64,000 bases of DNA from assembly GCF_029917005.1 (NCBI RefSeq), contig NZ_CP123967.1, positions 1,240,001-1,304,000 of the forward strand, read 5' to 3'. Positions 3,516-8,470 of this stretch are shown here, in pieces. A program made the position numbers and the translations under genes. Every line of letters begins with the position of its first letter. Position 1 is the first letter of the stretch. Origin of the DNA: Tessaracoccus lacteus. Its GTDB lineage: Bacteria; Actinomycetota; Actinomycetes; Propionibacteriales; Propionibacteriaceae. The notes beneath the pieces were generated by a model. That model was not told the origin of the DNA and searched no databases. It saw only the letters and a program-made list of their open reading frames with translations.

Positions 3516-3558
3516 AGTATTGCACTAAACAGAACGAGTGTTTTGCTTGGAGGGGTGT

Positions 3559-6500
3559 ATGAGCGACCTTGGTCTCGATATCGGGTCCACGACGGTCAAG
3601 GCCGCTGTCATGGACGGAGAGCGTCTCGTGTTCAGCGCCTACCGGCGCCACAACGCCGACGCCCGTGGCGCGCTGCGCGACCTCCTCCACGACATCGACG
3701 AGGCCCTGCCGGGGCGGGAGTTCCGCTGCCACGTCACCGGATCTGCGGGTCTCGGCGTCGCCGACCTGATGGGCGTCGGCTTCGTCCAGGAGGTCATCGC
3801 CTCGACCGAGGCCATCGAGAGGTTCAACCCGACCGCGGATGTCGTGATCGAGCTCGGCGGCGAGGACGCGAAGATCACCTACCTCCATCCCGTCGTCGAG
3901 CAGCGCATGAACGGCACCTGCGCCGGTGGTACCGGCGCCTTCATCGACCAGATGGCGACGCTGCTGCACACCGACGCCGGCGGCCTCGACGAGCTCGCGT
4001 CCCGGTACCAGAACCTCTACCCGATCGCTTCGCGGTGCGGGGTGTTCGCCAAGTCCGACCTGCAGCCGCTGCTGAACCAGGGCGCCCCGCACACGGACCT
4101 GGCGGCCTCGGTCTTCCAGGCCGTCGCGACCCAGACCATCGCCGGCCTGGCCTGCGGCAACCCCATCCGCGGCAACCTCGTGTTCCTCGGCGGGCCACTG
4201 CACTTCCTGCCCCAGCTCCGCGCGGCCTATGAGCGCGCGCTCGGCGATCACGTCACGTCGTTCACCACCCCGGCGGACGCCCATCTCTACGTCGCCATGG
4301 GGGCCGCACTGGTGGCGGGTCAGCAGACCGAGACACCGCGCCACCGTCTCACCGACCTTGCGGACGGGCTGCGTCAGCGCACCCTGATCCCCCTGGCGAC
4401 CACGAGGCTGCGGCCTCTGTTCCTCGACGACCAGGAGCGCGAGGAGTTCCTGACACGCCACGCCCGCGCCACCGTCCCGCGCCGGGAGCTGTCCGAGGCG
4501 AGCGGGCCGGTCTTCCTCGGCATCGACGCCGGCTCCACGACGGTCAAGGCCGTCGTGACCACCGCCGACGGCGAACTCCTCTTCACGCACTACCAGGGCA
4601 GCAACGACCCGGTCTCCGTAGCCTCGGCCATCCTGCGCACCGTCTGGGAGGCGCTCCCCGAGACCGCCTACCTTGCCCGCGCCTGCGTCACCGGCTACGG
4701 GGAGGGCCTCGTCAGGGCCGCGCTCCGCCTCGACGACGGCGAGATCGAGACCATGGCGCACTACCGGGCCGCCGAGCACCTCGCGCCCGGCGTCACCTCG
4801 GTGATCGACATCGGCGGCCAGGACATGAAGTACCTGCGGATCCGCCGCGGCGCGGTCGACTCCATCGCCGTCAACGAGGCATGCTCGTCCGGCTGCGGGT
4901 CCTTCCTGCAGACCTTCGCCGCCACGCTGGGCACCGACATCCAGAGCTTCGCCGCCCAGGCGCTGACCTCCACGGCACCGGTTGACCTCGGCACCCGGTG
5001 CACCGTCTTCATGAACAGCTCGGTGAAGCAGGCCCAGCGCGAGGGCGCGTCGCCCGCCGACATCGCCGCAGGCCTCTCCTACTCCGTCATTCGCAACGCC
5101 CTCTACAAGGTCATCAAGCTGAAGGACGCGTCCCAGTTGGGGGAGCGCGTCGTGGTGCAGGGCGGAACCTTCCTCAACGATGCCGTGCTGCGTGCCTTCG
5201 AGCTGCTCACCGGGGTCGAGGTCGTCCGGCCAGACGTCGCGGGACTGATGGGCGCCTACGGGGCTGCGCTGACCGCCCGCCGGAACTGGGGACAGGGAGA
5301 ACGGTCGCAGGCCCTCGACCTCGACGAACTCGACGCGCTGCGGGTCGACACCTCCATGGACGTCTGCCGGCTGTGCCAGAATCACTGCCAGCTGACCATC
5401 TCCCGGTTCTCCGACGGCACCCGCCACGTCTCCGGCAACCGCTGCGAGCGCGGCGCCAGCACCGAGAAGGTGCCGCCGAAGTCCGAGCTGCCCAACCTGT
5501 ACGACTACAAGTACCGCCGCATCTTCGGCTACCGCAGGCTCACCGCGGAGAAGGCCACGCGTGGCGACATCGGCATCCCCCGCGTGCTGAACATGTACGA
5601 GAACTACCCCTTGTGGTTCACGGTGCTCACGAAGCTCGGTTTCCGCGTGATGATCTCGGGCCGGTCCAACCATGAGCTGTTCGAGCGCGGCATGGACTCC
5701 ATCGTCTCCGAGAACATCTGCTACCCCGCCAAGCTCGCGCACGGACACGTTGAATCGCTGCTGGACAAGGGTGTCGACACAATCTTCCTGCCCTGCGTGC
5801 CGATCGAGGCCAAGGAGGTCGACGGCGCGGACAACCACTTCAACTGCCCCGTCGTCGCCTTCTACCCGCAGGTGCTCGGCAAGAACGTGGCCCGGCTGCG
5901 GGAGCAGGGCGTGCGCTATCTCGCCCCGATGCTGAGCCTCGACGACCCCGCCAAGCTGGCCACCCGGCTCGTGGAGGTCTTCGCCGACTGGAACGTGACG
6001 CCGGAGGAGGCAACCGCGGCGGTCGAGGCGGGCTTCGCCGAGGACGCGGCGGCCAAGGCCGACGTGCGCGCCGAGGGCCGCCGGGCGCTCGAGTACCTCG
6101 CGAAGCGTGGCCTGAAGGGCATCGTGCTCGCCGGTCGCCCCTATCACGTGGACCCTGAGGTCAACCACGGCATCCCGTCGCTCATCAACGGCCTCGGGAT
6201 GGGGGTGCTCACCGAGGACTCCATCCTCGACCCCACCGCGAGCGAGTTGGAGCGCCCGCTGCGGGTGCTGGATCAGTGGGCCTACCACACCCGCCTCTAC
6301 GAGGCCGCCGCGCGCGTCGCCACCCGGCCGGACCTGCACCTGGTGCAGCTCAACTCGTTCGGCTGCGGGGTGGACGCGATCACCACCGACCAGGTGGCGG
6401 AGATCCTCGAGCGCTCCGACGACCTGTACACGCTGCTGAAGATCGACGAGGTCTCGAACCTCGGCGCCGCCACCATCCGGCTGCGGTCCATGAAGGCGGC

Positions 6501-7887
6501 CGCCGCCGAGCGCCGCGGATCCGCGACCGTGGAGACCCACGACATCGACCGCACCCCGCCGCTGTTCACCCTTGAGGCCCGCCGCACGCACACCGTCTAT
6601 GCACCGCAGATGGCCCCGACCCACTTCCGGCTCATCGTGCCGGTGCTGAGGAAGGTGGGCATCAACGTCGAGCTGCTCGAGCATGCGAGCACCGAGGACG
6701 TCGAGGTCGGCCTGAAGTTCGTCAACAACGACGCCTGCTTCCCGGCGATCATGGTCGTCGGGCAGCTTGTGAACAAGATCCGCTCCGGCGAGGCGGATCC
6801 TGAGCGCTCGTCGGTGATCATCACGCAGACCGGCGGCATGTGCCGCGCCACCAACTATGTCGGGCTGCTGCGCAAGGCTCTGGCGGACGCGGGATACCCG
6901 CAGATCCCCGTGCTTGCCGTCAGCGTGCAGGGCCTCGAGGAGAGCCCGGGGTTCACGCTGAGCCCGTCGATGATCCATCCGCTCCTGCAGGCGCTGGTGC
7001 TCGGCGACCTGCTGCAGTCGCTGCTGCTGCGCGTGCGCCCGTACGAGGCGCTGGAGGGCAGCGCGAAGGAGCTCTACGGGCGCTGGGACCTGATCTGCCA
7101 GGAGTGGCTGCAGTTCTCCGGCCGCAGCGCGACGCTCGGACGGAGCGTCGGCTACTCGAAGCTGGTCCGGCTGATCGTGGGCGAGTTCGATGCGCTCCCG
7201 CTGACGGACGGCCCGCGGCGACCACGCGTCGGCATCGTCGGTGAGATCCTGGTGAAGTTCCACCCGGACGCGAACAACCACGTGGTCGACGTCGTCGAGG
7301 ATGAAGGGTGCGAGGCTGTGCTGCCTGGCATGCTGCCGTTCTTCCTGATGGGGATGTACTCGTCGAGGCACCGCTACGAGACGCTCGGCGTCGGAGGAAG
7401 CTCGCGACACCTCAAGGCGATGGCGACGTGGCTCGTGGAGCGCTACCAGGACCCGGTCCGGCGCGCGCTGGCCGCCACGGGTGGCAAGTTCGACGTGCCG
7501 GCGACGATGAAGGAGCTGGCGGGCAAGGCCGACGGCATCATCTCGCTCGGCACCCTGGCCGGCGAGGGCTGGCTGCTGACCGCCGAGATGGTCGAGCTGA
7601 TCGAGCTCGGTGCGCCCAACATCATCTGCGCGCAGCCGTTCGCCTGCCTGCCGAACCACGTCGTCGGTCGCGGCATGTTCGCCGAGCTGAGGCGTCAGCA
7701 CCCTCGGGCCAACGTGGTGAGCGTCGACTACGACCCCGGTGCCTCCGAGACCAACCAGCTCAACCGCATCAAGTTGATGATCGCCACCGCCCACAAGCAG
7801 GCGGCCAGGGCAGGGGACGGGTTCCGGCTCGGGGCGGCCACGCCCGTCTCCCCGGTCGACGTCTGGGAGGACTCACTCACCCGCTGA
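3559..7887 (+). CDS. Large double-activase protein of the 2-hydroxyacyl-CoA dehydratase activator family (BcrAD/BadFG + DUF2229)
   Basis: ATG 3559 follows a strong GGAGG; 1,442 residues. Two ASKHA ATPase domains come first: domain 1 at about 1-280 (phosphate loop DIGSTTVK from D7) and domain 2 at about 318-570 (DAGSTTVK from D323). Each keeps two cysteines 39 residues apart (C121/C160 and C442/C481), the same spacing as C127/C166 that hold the shared [4Fe-4S] cluster of HgdC. A cysteine cluster C603-x2-C606-x3-C610-x18-C629 follows, then a DUF2229/dehydratase-like half with conserved cysteines C721, C746, C1060, C1095, C1357 and C1363. The family is annotated as acyl-CoA dehydratase activase-related; activases use ATP to drive low-potential electron transfer. 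The real substrate is unknown. No hgdA/hgdB genes are nearby. Its last 11 bp overlap the convergent tetR. Confidence 0.85.
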   Translation: MSDLGLDIGSTTVKAAVMDGERLVFSAYRRHNADARGALRDLLHDIDEALPGREFRCHVTGSAGLGVADLMGVGFVQEVIASTEAIERFNPTADVVIELGGEDAKITYLHPVVEQRMNGTCAGGTGAFIDQMATLLHTDAGGLDELASRYQNLYPIASRCGVFAKSDLQPLLNQGAPHTDLAASVFQAVATQTIAGLACGNPIRGNLVFLGGPLHFLPQLRAAYERALGDHVTSFTTPADAHLYVAMGAALVAGQQTETPRHRLTDLADGLRQRTLIPLATTRLRPLFLDDQEREEFLTRHARATVPRRELSEASGPVFLGIDAGSTTVKAVVTTADGELLFTHYQGSNDPVSVASAILRTVWEALPETAYLARACVTGYGEGLVRAALRLDDGEIETMAHYRAAEHLAPGVTSVIDIGGQDMKYLRIRRGAVDSIAVNEACSSGCGSFLQTFAATLGTDIQSFAAQALTSTAPVDLGTRCTVFMNSSVKQAQREGASPADIAAGLSYSVIRNALYKVIKLKDASQLGERVVVQGGTFLNDAVLRAFELLTGVEVVRPDVAGLMGAYGAALTARRNWGQGERSQALDLDELDALRVDTSMDVCRLCQNHCQLTISRFSDGTRHVSGNRCERGASTEKVPPKSELPNLYDYKYRRIFGYRRLTAEKATRGDIGIPRVLNMYENYPLWFTVLTKLGFRVMISGRSNHELFERGMDSIVSENICYPAKLAHGHVESLLDKGVDTIFLPCVPIEAKEVDGADNHFNCPVVAFYPQVLGKNVARLREQGVRYLAPMLSLDDPAKLATRLVEVFADWNVTPEEATAAVEAGFAEDAAAKADVRAEGRRALEYLAKRGLKGIVLAGRPYHVDPEVNHGIPSLINGLGMGVLTEDSILDPTASELERPLRVLDQWAYHTRLYEAAARVATRPDLHLVQLNSFGCGVDAITTDQVAEILERSDDLYTLLKIDEVSNLGAATIRLRSMKAAAAERRGSATVETHDIDRTPPLFTLEARRTHTVYAPQMAPTHFRLIVPVLRKVGINVELLEHASTEDVEVGLKFVNNDACFPAIMVVGQLVNKIRSGEADPERSSVIITQTGGMCRATNYVGLLRKALADAGYPQIPVLAVSVQGLEESPGFTLSPSMIHPLLQALVLGDLLQSLLLRVRPYEALEGSAKELYGRWDLICQEWLQFSGRSATLGRSVGYSKLVRLIVGEFDALPLTDGPRRPRVGIVGEILVKFHPDANNHVVDVVEDEGCEAVLPGMLPFFLMGMYSSRHRYETLGVGGSSRHLKAMATWLVERYQDPVRRALAATGGKFDVPATMKELAGKADGIISLGTLAGEGWLLTAEMVELIELGAPNIICAQPFACLPNHVVGRGMFAELRRQHPRANVVSVDYDPGASETNQLNRIKLMIATAHKQAARAGDGFRLGAATPVSPVDVWEDSLTR

Positions 7888-8470
7888 CGGCGAGTCCGTT
7901 AACGACCGATCGGCGGAGCTCCTCGCGGTCGGCCCCCGGCTGCAGCACGATGCGCACGACGAACCCGTGCATCGCGGCCAGGACGACGCCCGCGGCGTCC
8001 CTGGCCCGGTCATCCGCGTCGGATCCGAAACGCTCCCGGCCCCAGGGGGCCAGCGCACCGACGACGACGTCGAGGAGGTCGGTGACCGCGTCGCTGGCCA
8101 GCCGCGCGAGCTCCTGCTCGAACGGGACCTGCGACCAGACCTGCAGCAGCAGGGAGGCCGTCGCCTCGAACGGCTCGTCCTGCTCGAGGAGCAGCTGGTC
8201 GAGCACCTGGGCAGGTGTCGGCCGGTCTCGGGAGTCCAGCCCGGCCTGCAGGGACTCCAACCGGGCGGTGAGCACCTCTGCGATGGCGTGGCGCAGCAGG
8301 GCCGCCTTGCTGTCGAAGTGCGAGTAGATAGACCCGGCGGACAGGCCGGACTCCGCGATGATGTCCGCCATCGACGTGCTGGCGAACCCGTCGCGCACGA
8401 AACAGCGCAGCGCCGCCGCCGCGATCTGGTCGCGCCGGTCGCGGCGCGTGTCGTCGGAGAGGCGGGGCAT
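7877..8470 (-). CDS. TetR/AcrR-family transcriptional regulator
   Basis: Protein of 197 residues. Residues about 10-60 form the TetR helix-turn-helix: RRDQIAAAALRCFVRDGF, then TSMADIIAESGLSAGSIYSHF, then SKAALLRHAI. The rest is a helical effector domain of normal length with no recognisable ligand signature. It lies 3 bp downstream of the oxidoreductase gene on the same strand, so the two are probably cotranscribed. Its 3' end overlaps the convergent activase-like gene by 11 bp. Effector and targets are unknown; candidates are its own operon and the inverted repeat at 3501-3515. Confidence 0.9.
   Translation of the reverse strand: MPRLSDDTRRDRRDQIAAAALRCFVRDGFASTSMADIIAESGLSAGSIYSHFDSKAALLRHAIAEVLTARLESLQAGLDSRDRPTPAQVLDQLLLEQDEPFEATASLLLQVWSQVPFEQELARLASDAVTDLLDVVVGALAPWGRERFGSDADDRARDAAGVVLAAMHGFVVRIVLQPGADREELRRSVVNGLAVSG

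Follow-up and report, generated by a model that had tools for sequence, protein, structure and literature searches.

A fused two-activase protein of Tessaracoccus lacteus, a candidate single-chain relative of ATP-driven benzoyl-CoA reductases and 2-hydroxyacyl-CoA dehydratases

Introduction

Can one polypeptide hold both the ATP-driven activator and the catalytic part of a benzoyl-CoA reductase (BCR)- or 2-hydroxyacyl-CoA dehydratase (HAD)-type enzyme? This question is raised by a gene in a 64,000-nucleotide stretch of the Tessaracoccus lacteus genome (NZ_CP123967.1, positions 1,240,001 to 1,304,000; hereafter the window). An earlier note on this DNA had proposed that the encoded protein contains two HgdC-like activase domains, which could pair within the chain around a shared [4Fe-4S] cluster and serve an attached dehydratase-like half. 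We analysed the protein, its relatives and its genomic setting. The two activase domains (D1 and D2) are followed by a cysteine-rich tail and two further units, A and B (Table 1). With a probability of about 0.6, the protein is related to the two-component, ATP-driven BCR/HAD-type enzymes and unites their parts in one chain.

Results

Two activase domains in one chain

The start codon of the fused gene was taken as the ATG at 3559, and the stop codon ends at 7887; the open frame extends upstream to a GTG at 3538. D1 and D2 both aligned to HgdC (1hux) in phmmer, with E values of 7.5e-23 and 1.6e-25, respectively. HadI, MbdP, MbdQ and the reductase of the double-cubane cluster protein (DCCP; 7yyl_E), like HgdC, each aligned with D1 and D2 separately. 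The curated models TIGR00241 (CoA_E_activ; 230.1 bits for the whole protein, cut-off 125.4) and PF01869 (BcrAD_BadFG; 181.7 bits, cut-off 31.5) each matched in two stretches. A fold search found the activator fold for both domains in predicted models, which had predicted template-modelling (pTM) scores of 0.77 (residues 1-640) and 0.84 (second model). The best structural match of D2 was MbdQ. These findings confirm that one polypeptide carries two HgdC-like domains. The ASKHA aspartates D7 and D323 and the cysteine pairs 121/160 and 442/481 lie where the earlier note had placed them, and residues counted on the printed phmmer alignment bear out the equivalence of C121/C160 to C127/C166 of HgdC.

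In a tree of 60 activase domains, all D1 domains fell on one side, and D2, the activases of split-gene relatives (see below) and the solved activators fell on the other (97/97). The tree was midpoint-rooted and had flagged long branches; we do not claim an order of events from it. Covariation (mutual information with average-product correction) was tried as evidence for D1-D2 contact and set aside. Among 207 full-length proteins (effective number ~102), D1-D2 pairs made up 25 of the top 200 (background 5.6%); however, pairs between all other units were equally prominent and within-domain pairs were few, indicating that the signal reflects phylogeny and is uninformative on contacts.

Family size and cysteine conservation

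All 7988 scored candidates matched the window protein at E ≤ 0.001; the number is a lower bound on family size, because scoring was confined to candidates sharing most words. The 120 listed family members are 1334-1548 residues long. Relatives occur in Actinomycetota, Bacillota, Spirochaetota and Fusobacteriota. A contig scan gave at least 588 stretches, at least 568 of which encode a relative; in viral contigs, two stretches fitted a scan pattern and neither codes for a relative. The scan patterns sit just before C121 and exclude it, and may bias the scan towards copies in which D1 is intact. The best 80 contig loci were kept; their proteins are 48-77% identical, mostly from Bacillota and also from Actinomycetota and Spirochaetota.

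We aligned the window protein with five genus relatives and 77 of these loci (83 rows; L067, L076 and L122 were excluded as shorter than 1380 residues). Fourteen cysteines were kept in all 83 rows: C442, C446 and C481 in D2; C603, C606, C610 and C629 in the tail; C721, C763 and C936 in A; and C1060, C1095, C1357 and C1363 in B. Conservation was lower for C160 (82 rows), C121 (81), C199 (77), C746 (59) and C1251 (15). Only L010 and L011, in which D1 is encoded in a different frame, depart at C121 and C160. The family alignment that the earlier note had proposed as a check therefore upheld its four cysteines, all of which were kept in 81/81 intact rows, and also in every one of 13 more distantly related fused proteins. 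In the latter, C446 was replaced by Thr in six (L133-L136, L139 and L146) and C1357 was replaced in nine.

Two of these distant proteins, L139 (5693-10195) and L146 (6429-10391), lack the four-cysteine tail and the B cysteines and keep the activase and A cysteines; position 103 is R or S in them. They form a third fused type, in which the cluster of B may have been lost.

Genus relatives G016 and G028 (L161 and L162) change frame in the D1-D2 linker, at about 7260 and 8520, respectively. A true split between D1 and D2 was considered for these copies and set aside. The lepA match in G016 also changes frame, which makes an assembly error likely in that genome.

Split and two-gene relatives

In five Actinomycetota loci, A (320-342 residues), B (364-390) and one activase D (319-335) are encoded by adjacent genes, ordered A-B-D in L140, L143, L144 and L145 and D-A-B in L152. 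Monoglobus also has A, B and D genes side by side, and Fusobacterium has a two-gene form consisting of D1-D2-A and a separate B. Two loci were incomplete: L141 has A and B without a D match, and L142 stops after A. Each single D contains both cluster cysteines (6/6). From the split relatives and the Fusobacterium form, the fused chain can be read as the sum of two D, one A and one B. This ratio is our chief reason for proposing an intramolecular activator pair, and the pTM of the model of residues 1-640 suggests, indirectly, that D1 and D2 have a defined arrangement.

The domains might instead pair between chains, as D1-D1′ and D2-D2′ or as D1-D2′, giving two bridging clusters per chain dimer. 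HgdC itself is a homodimer (PMC8473912), which is a precedent for such pairing. However, one fused chain already supplies the activator-pair ratio for which the single-activase operons need a homodimer, and the predicted D1-D2 arrangement also argues against it; we hold inter-chain pairing to be unlikely.

Other genes were seen around the split loci. In L140, L144 and L145, two genes near A-B-D encode DHODB_Fe-S_bind/FAD_binding_6 and Fer4_20/Pyr_redox_2 domains and resemble the two subunits of NfnAB or SudAB; the NCBIfam evidence covers L145, and two of the three genomes belong to one family (f16) and are not independent. We count these genes in favour of an electron-driven, BCR/HAD-type reading. 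ApbE was also present in L140 and L145. In L140, L142 and L144, split A adjoins genes that read by eye as dnaK, grpE, dnaJ, merR-like and clpB.

A four-cysteine tail belongs to the activase

The motif CxxCxxxC(x18)C, overlooked in the earlier reading, follows D2 in all 83 fused rows and is present in 6/6 single activases; thus the tail belongs to the activase. Judged from their lengths, the five solved activators extend no more than about 23 residues beyond the aligned part, too few for such a tail. The fifth conserved cysteine of D2, C446, lies four residues after the presumed ligand C442 and is Thr in 6/6 single activases.

Units A and B and their relation to dehydratases

DUF2229 (PF09989) matched in A with 276.2 bits (cut-off 29.4). 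The earlier note had seen a single dehydratase-like half with its own conserved cysteines. The cysteines held up; however, the half consists of two units, which are related to each other; split A and split B aligned in hhalign with E 1.5e-25. The fused and split forms correspond (A, E 2.5e-27; B, E 3.3e-16).

Compared with 23 proteins of the 2-hydroxyacyl-CoA dehydratase family HGD-D (PF06050), split A matched with a probability of 97.0% (E 1.2e-10) and split B with 92.3% (E 5.7e-7), beside 0.5% and 0.2%, respectively, for reversed controls. The matching region was the C-terminal part including the third cysteine. Merged profiles gave 79.8% for A and 40.4% for B, with reversed controls at 0.2-0.5% overall. 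In relatives, PF06050 matched weakly, below its cut-off of 28.4 bits, in L133 (26.3) and B of L143 (26.7), and above it in split A of G126 in a genome search (36.8). On these profile comparisons, split A and B appear to be remote homologues of HGD-D.

The cysteine pattern is similar. According to PMC8473912, a dehydratase has a [4Fe-4S] cluster on three cysteines per subunit and its activator dimer has one on two plus two; the three invariant cysteines each in A and B fit this plan. According to PMC11971306, the BzdO cluster is likewise held by three cysteines (95/128/380), and the spacing of C1060/C1095/C1363 resembles theirs.

Class I BCR has the same unit make-up, two ATPase and two Hgd-D-like units (PMC11362221), and the structural proximity of D2 to MbdQ also agrees with a BCR-type enzyme. 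However, the scores are far below the BCR equivalog cut-offs (A, 97.7 vs 578 bits; BzdQ, 69 vs 380.2; D, 61.2 vs 312.85), and no aromatic pathway gene was seen among the adjacent genes examined. A BCR proper is thus distinctly unlikely. A DCCP-like enzyme that reduces small molecules at an [8Fe-9S] double-cubane cluster is quite improbable. The relationship of D to the DCCP reductase and a weak match of the A profile to DCCP (E 0.061 and 0.15) speak for it; however, A has three invariant cysteines and B three in addition to C1357, numbers that look too low for one unit to bind a double cubane.

Host genome and genomic site

The earlier note had found no partner dehydratase gene nearby. The statement extends to the whole 3.05-Mb genome, in which PF06050 had no match; there is thus no HGD-D protein in it to be served in trans. 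The genome has a single DUF2229 match, in the fused gene, and one further PF01869 match, below the cut-off. These results bear on the idea that the protein is an activator only, passing electrons to a separate dehydratase, with A-B as a docking or regulatory part. Database names, which read activase or activase-related, agree with that idea; however, the lack of HGD-D in the genome and the invariance of the A and B cysteines in 83/83 rows make it highly improbable. Matches to NRDD, POR and COX1 suggest that the host is a facultative anaerobe; those to NRDD and POR accord with a BCR/HAD-type enzyme.

The gene is patchily distributed, being present in 8 of 36 genomes of the genus (T. lacteus included) and in 0 of 24 genomes of the order. 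In T. lacteus and G033 (98.6% identical protein), comEC and Gfo/Idh-holA flank the fused gene and a TetR gene. In L157, L159 and L160 the comEC-holA gap is 41-83 bp, and in G016 and G028 the fused gene is at another site. Comparison of the comEC-holA site points to gain or loss there.

No conserved operon was found among the neighbours in the best 80 contig loci. The commonest neighbour occurred in 19 of 80 loci and was divergent in 18 of these 19; an example of it had only weak Pfam matches. A 3-hydroxyacyl-CoA dehydrogenase gene lies downstream of the Collinsella copy (L196; 9943-10902), and an FMN-dependent azoreductase gene precedes the fused gene of Listeria (L193; 2532-3167).

A TetR-family gene often adjoins the fused gene in Actinomycetota

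A TetR-family gene overlapped the fused gene or lay within 150 bp of it in 13 of 17 Actinomycetota loci (L153, L161, L162, L009, L053, L054, L138, L147-L151 and L196; not in L055, L056, L137 or L163), versus 2 of 78 others (L068 and L110), 64 of which have at least 700 bp on both sides. L007 was excluded for too little flank, and L133-L136, L139 and L146 were outside the scan. The link was noticed after the fact, and the small profile used was seeded with some of the same genes. Pfam TetR domains were present in all 13; the score of L151 was just below the cut-off (23.5 vs 24), and L196 had the C-terminal domain only.

TetR_N gave 132 matches in eight genomes (~23 Mb) that had been picked for showing the link. 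At one gene per kb, a TetR gene would be expected by chance among two neighbours in roughly 1.1-1.4% of cases. Taking 1.4%, the binomial tail comes to ~2e-21, a figure that ignores kinship among loci and is no true probability. Orientation and TetR subfamily vary among loci. The adjoining TetR protein probably senses an inducer in Actinomycetota.

Table 1. Positions of the fused gene, its units and conserved residues, and the adjoining regulator gene in the window
Feature	Position	Strand	Basis
Fused gene, 1442 aa, order D1-linker-D2-tail-A-B	3559..7887	+	ORF, Pfam and NCBIfam
D1, first HgdC-type activase domain, residues 1-262	3559..4344	+	Alignment, fold match, conservation
D1 sites	D7; C121 (3919-3921); C160 (4036-4038)	+	Sequence, conservation
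D1-D2 linker, residues 263-316, bounds approximate	4345..4506	+	From domain ends
D2, second HgdC-type activase domain, residues 317-580	4507..5298	+	Alignment, fold match, conservation
D2 sites	D323; C442 (4882-4884); C446 (4894-4896); C481 (4999-5001)	+	Sequence, conservation
Four-cysteine motif CxxCxxxC(x18)C in activase tail, C603/C606/C610/C629	5365..5445	+	Conservation; single-gene activases
A unit, residues about 640-1000; DUF2229, residues 671-889	5476..6558	+	Pfam, conservation, profile alignment
A invariant cysteines	C721 (5719-5721); C763 (5845-5847); C936 (6364-6366)	+	
B unit, residues about 1001-1442	6559..7884	+	Conservation, profile alignment
B cysteines, invariant	C1060 (6736-6738); C1095 (6841-6843); C1363 (7645-7647)	+	
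B cysteine, main clade also	C1357 (7627-7629)	+	
TetR-family regulator, convergent, overlaps 3′ end of fused gene; proposed regulator	7877..8470	-	TetR_N 1.1e-14; recurrent neighbour

Discussion

Several results weigh against a single-chain BCR/HAD-type enzyme. The profiles of fused A and fused B, used alone, matched HGD-D with 5.7% and 5.6%, and the window protein had no PF06050 match at E up to 10. Against the PDB, the A profile ranked thioredoxins at the top (E 0.014-0.035), followed by DCCP at the values given above and HadB (E 0.64), and the B profile found no related protein. In the fold search with residues 316-1442, ASKHA proteins filled the rows shown, and the absence of dehydratases among these rows is no evidence. 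Two distant fused proteins have neither the tail nor the B cysteines, and COX1 in the T. lacteus genome indicates that the host is not a strict anaerobe.

The mechanism put forward in the earlier note is nevertheless likely in outline; its geometric core, the meeting of C121, C160, C442 and C481 on one cluster, is what we infer. D1 and D2 of the same chain would form an activator pseudo-dimer, holding one [4Fe-4S] cluster between these four cysteines. A low-potential donor such as ferredoxin would reduce it, perhaps via a second cluster on C603/C606/C610/C629. The two ASKHA sites would then bind and hydrolyse ATP, driving single electrons into putative catalytic clusters on C721/C763/C936 in A and C1060/C1095/C1363 in B, where the substrate, plausibly a CoA thioester, would be reduced or dehydrated.

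A bolder version, which we offer tentatively and consider somewhat doubtful, is a nitrogenase-like machine in one polypeptide. It would combine the pseudo-dimer with its shared [4Fe-4S] cluster and nearby C446, an electron-entry cluster in the tail and two catalytic clusters, amounting to about 16 Fe per chain. Its substrate class would lie outside those of the known dehydratases and benzoyl-CoA reductases, and in Actinomycetota a TetR-family sensor would switch it on.

The family is large, already annotated and biochemically uncharacterised, and the window protein is a further member; our open-access literature searches showed no paper on the biochemistry of the fused family. In Streptococcus mutans, SMU_0438c, which is activator-related by name and whose family membership rests on that name, was up 2.2-fold on manganese depletion, according to PMC6952196. 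New here are a side-by-side view of split, two-gene and fused family members, the recognition that the four-cysteine tail is part of the activase, the three invariant cysteines in each of A and B, and the association with TetR genes. If the proposed mechanism is true, a single protein would supply very low-potential electrons at the expense of ATP, and it would be simpler to express and dissect than reductases made of four subunits. Setting the split and two-gene relatives beside the fused gene reveals which parts were joined, and through the neighbouring TetR genes the inducer, and hence the substrate, might be traced.

Among known systems, the closest are the fused YjiL-YjiL-DUF2229 enzymes, annotated as "acyl-CoA dehydratase activase-related protein" or "2-hydroxyacyl-CoA dehydratase". 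They have the identical architecture, two activase domains and DUF2229 in one chain, and the window protein belongs to them. Such a fusion has been described once in print, with an extra Hgd-D-like gene standing alongside (PMC11362221), whereas the T. lacteus genome has none. The 2-hydroxyacyl-CoA dehydratases (HgdC with HgdAB, HadI with HadBC) share the activator domain with two cluster cysteines and the three cysteines in each catalytic unit, and appear to be remotely homologous to split A and B. Unlike them, the window protein is one chain with two unlike activators, a four-cysteine tail, and A and B units beyond the reach of the HGD-D model. Class I benzoyl-CoA reductases (BcrCBAD, BzdNOPQ, MbdONPQ) likewise combine two different activator units with two different catalytic ones; however, they consist of four separate chains, and the window protein scores below their equivalog cut-offs. 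The double-cubane cluster protein and its reductase (6eno, 7yyl) have a related activator and a weak match to A, but are separate proteins.

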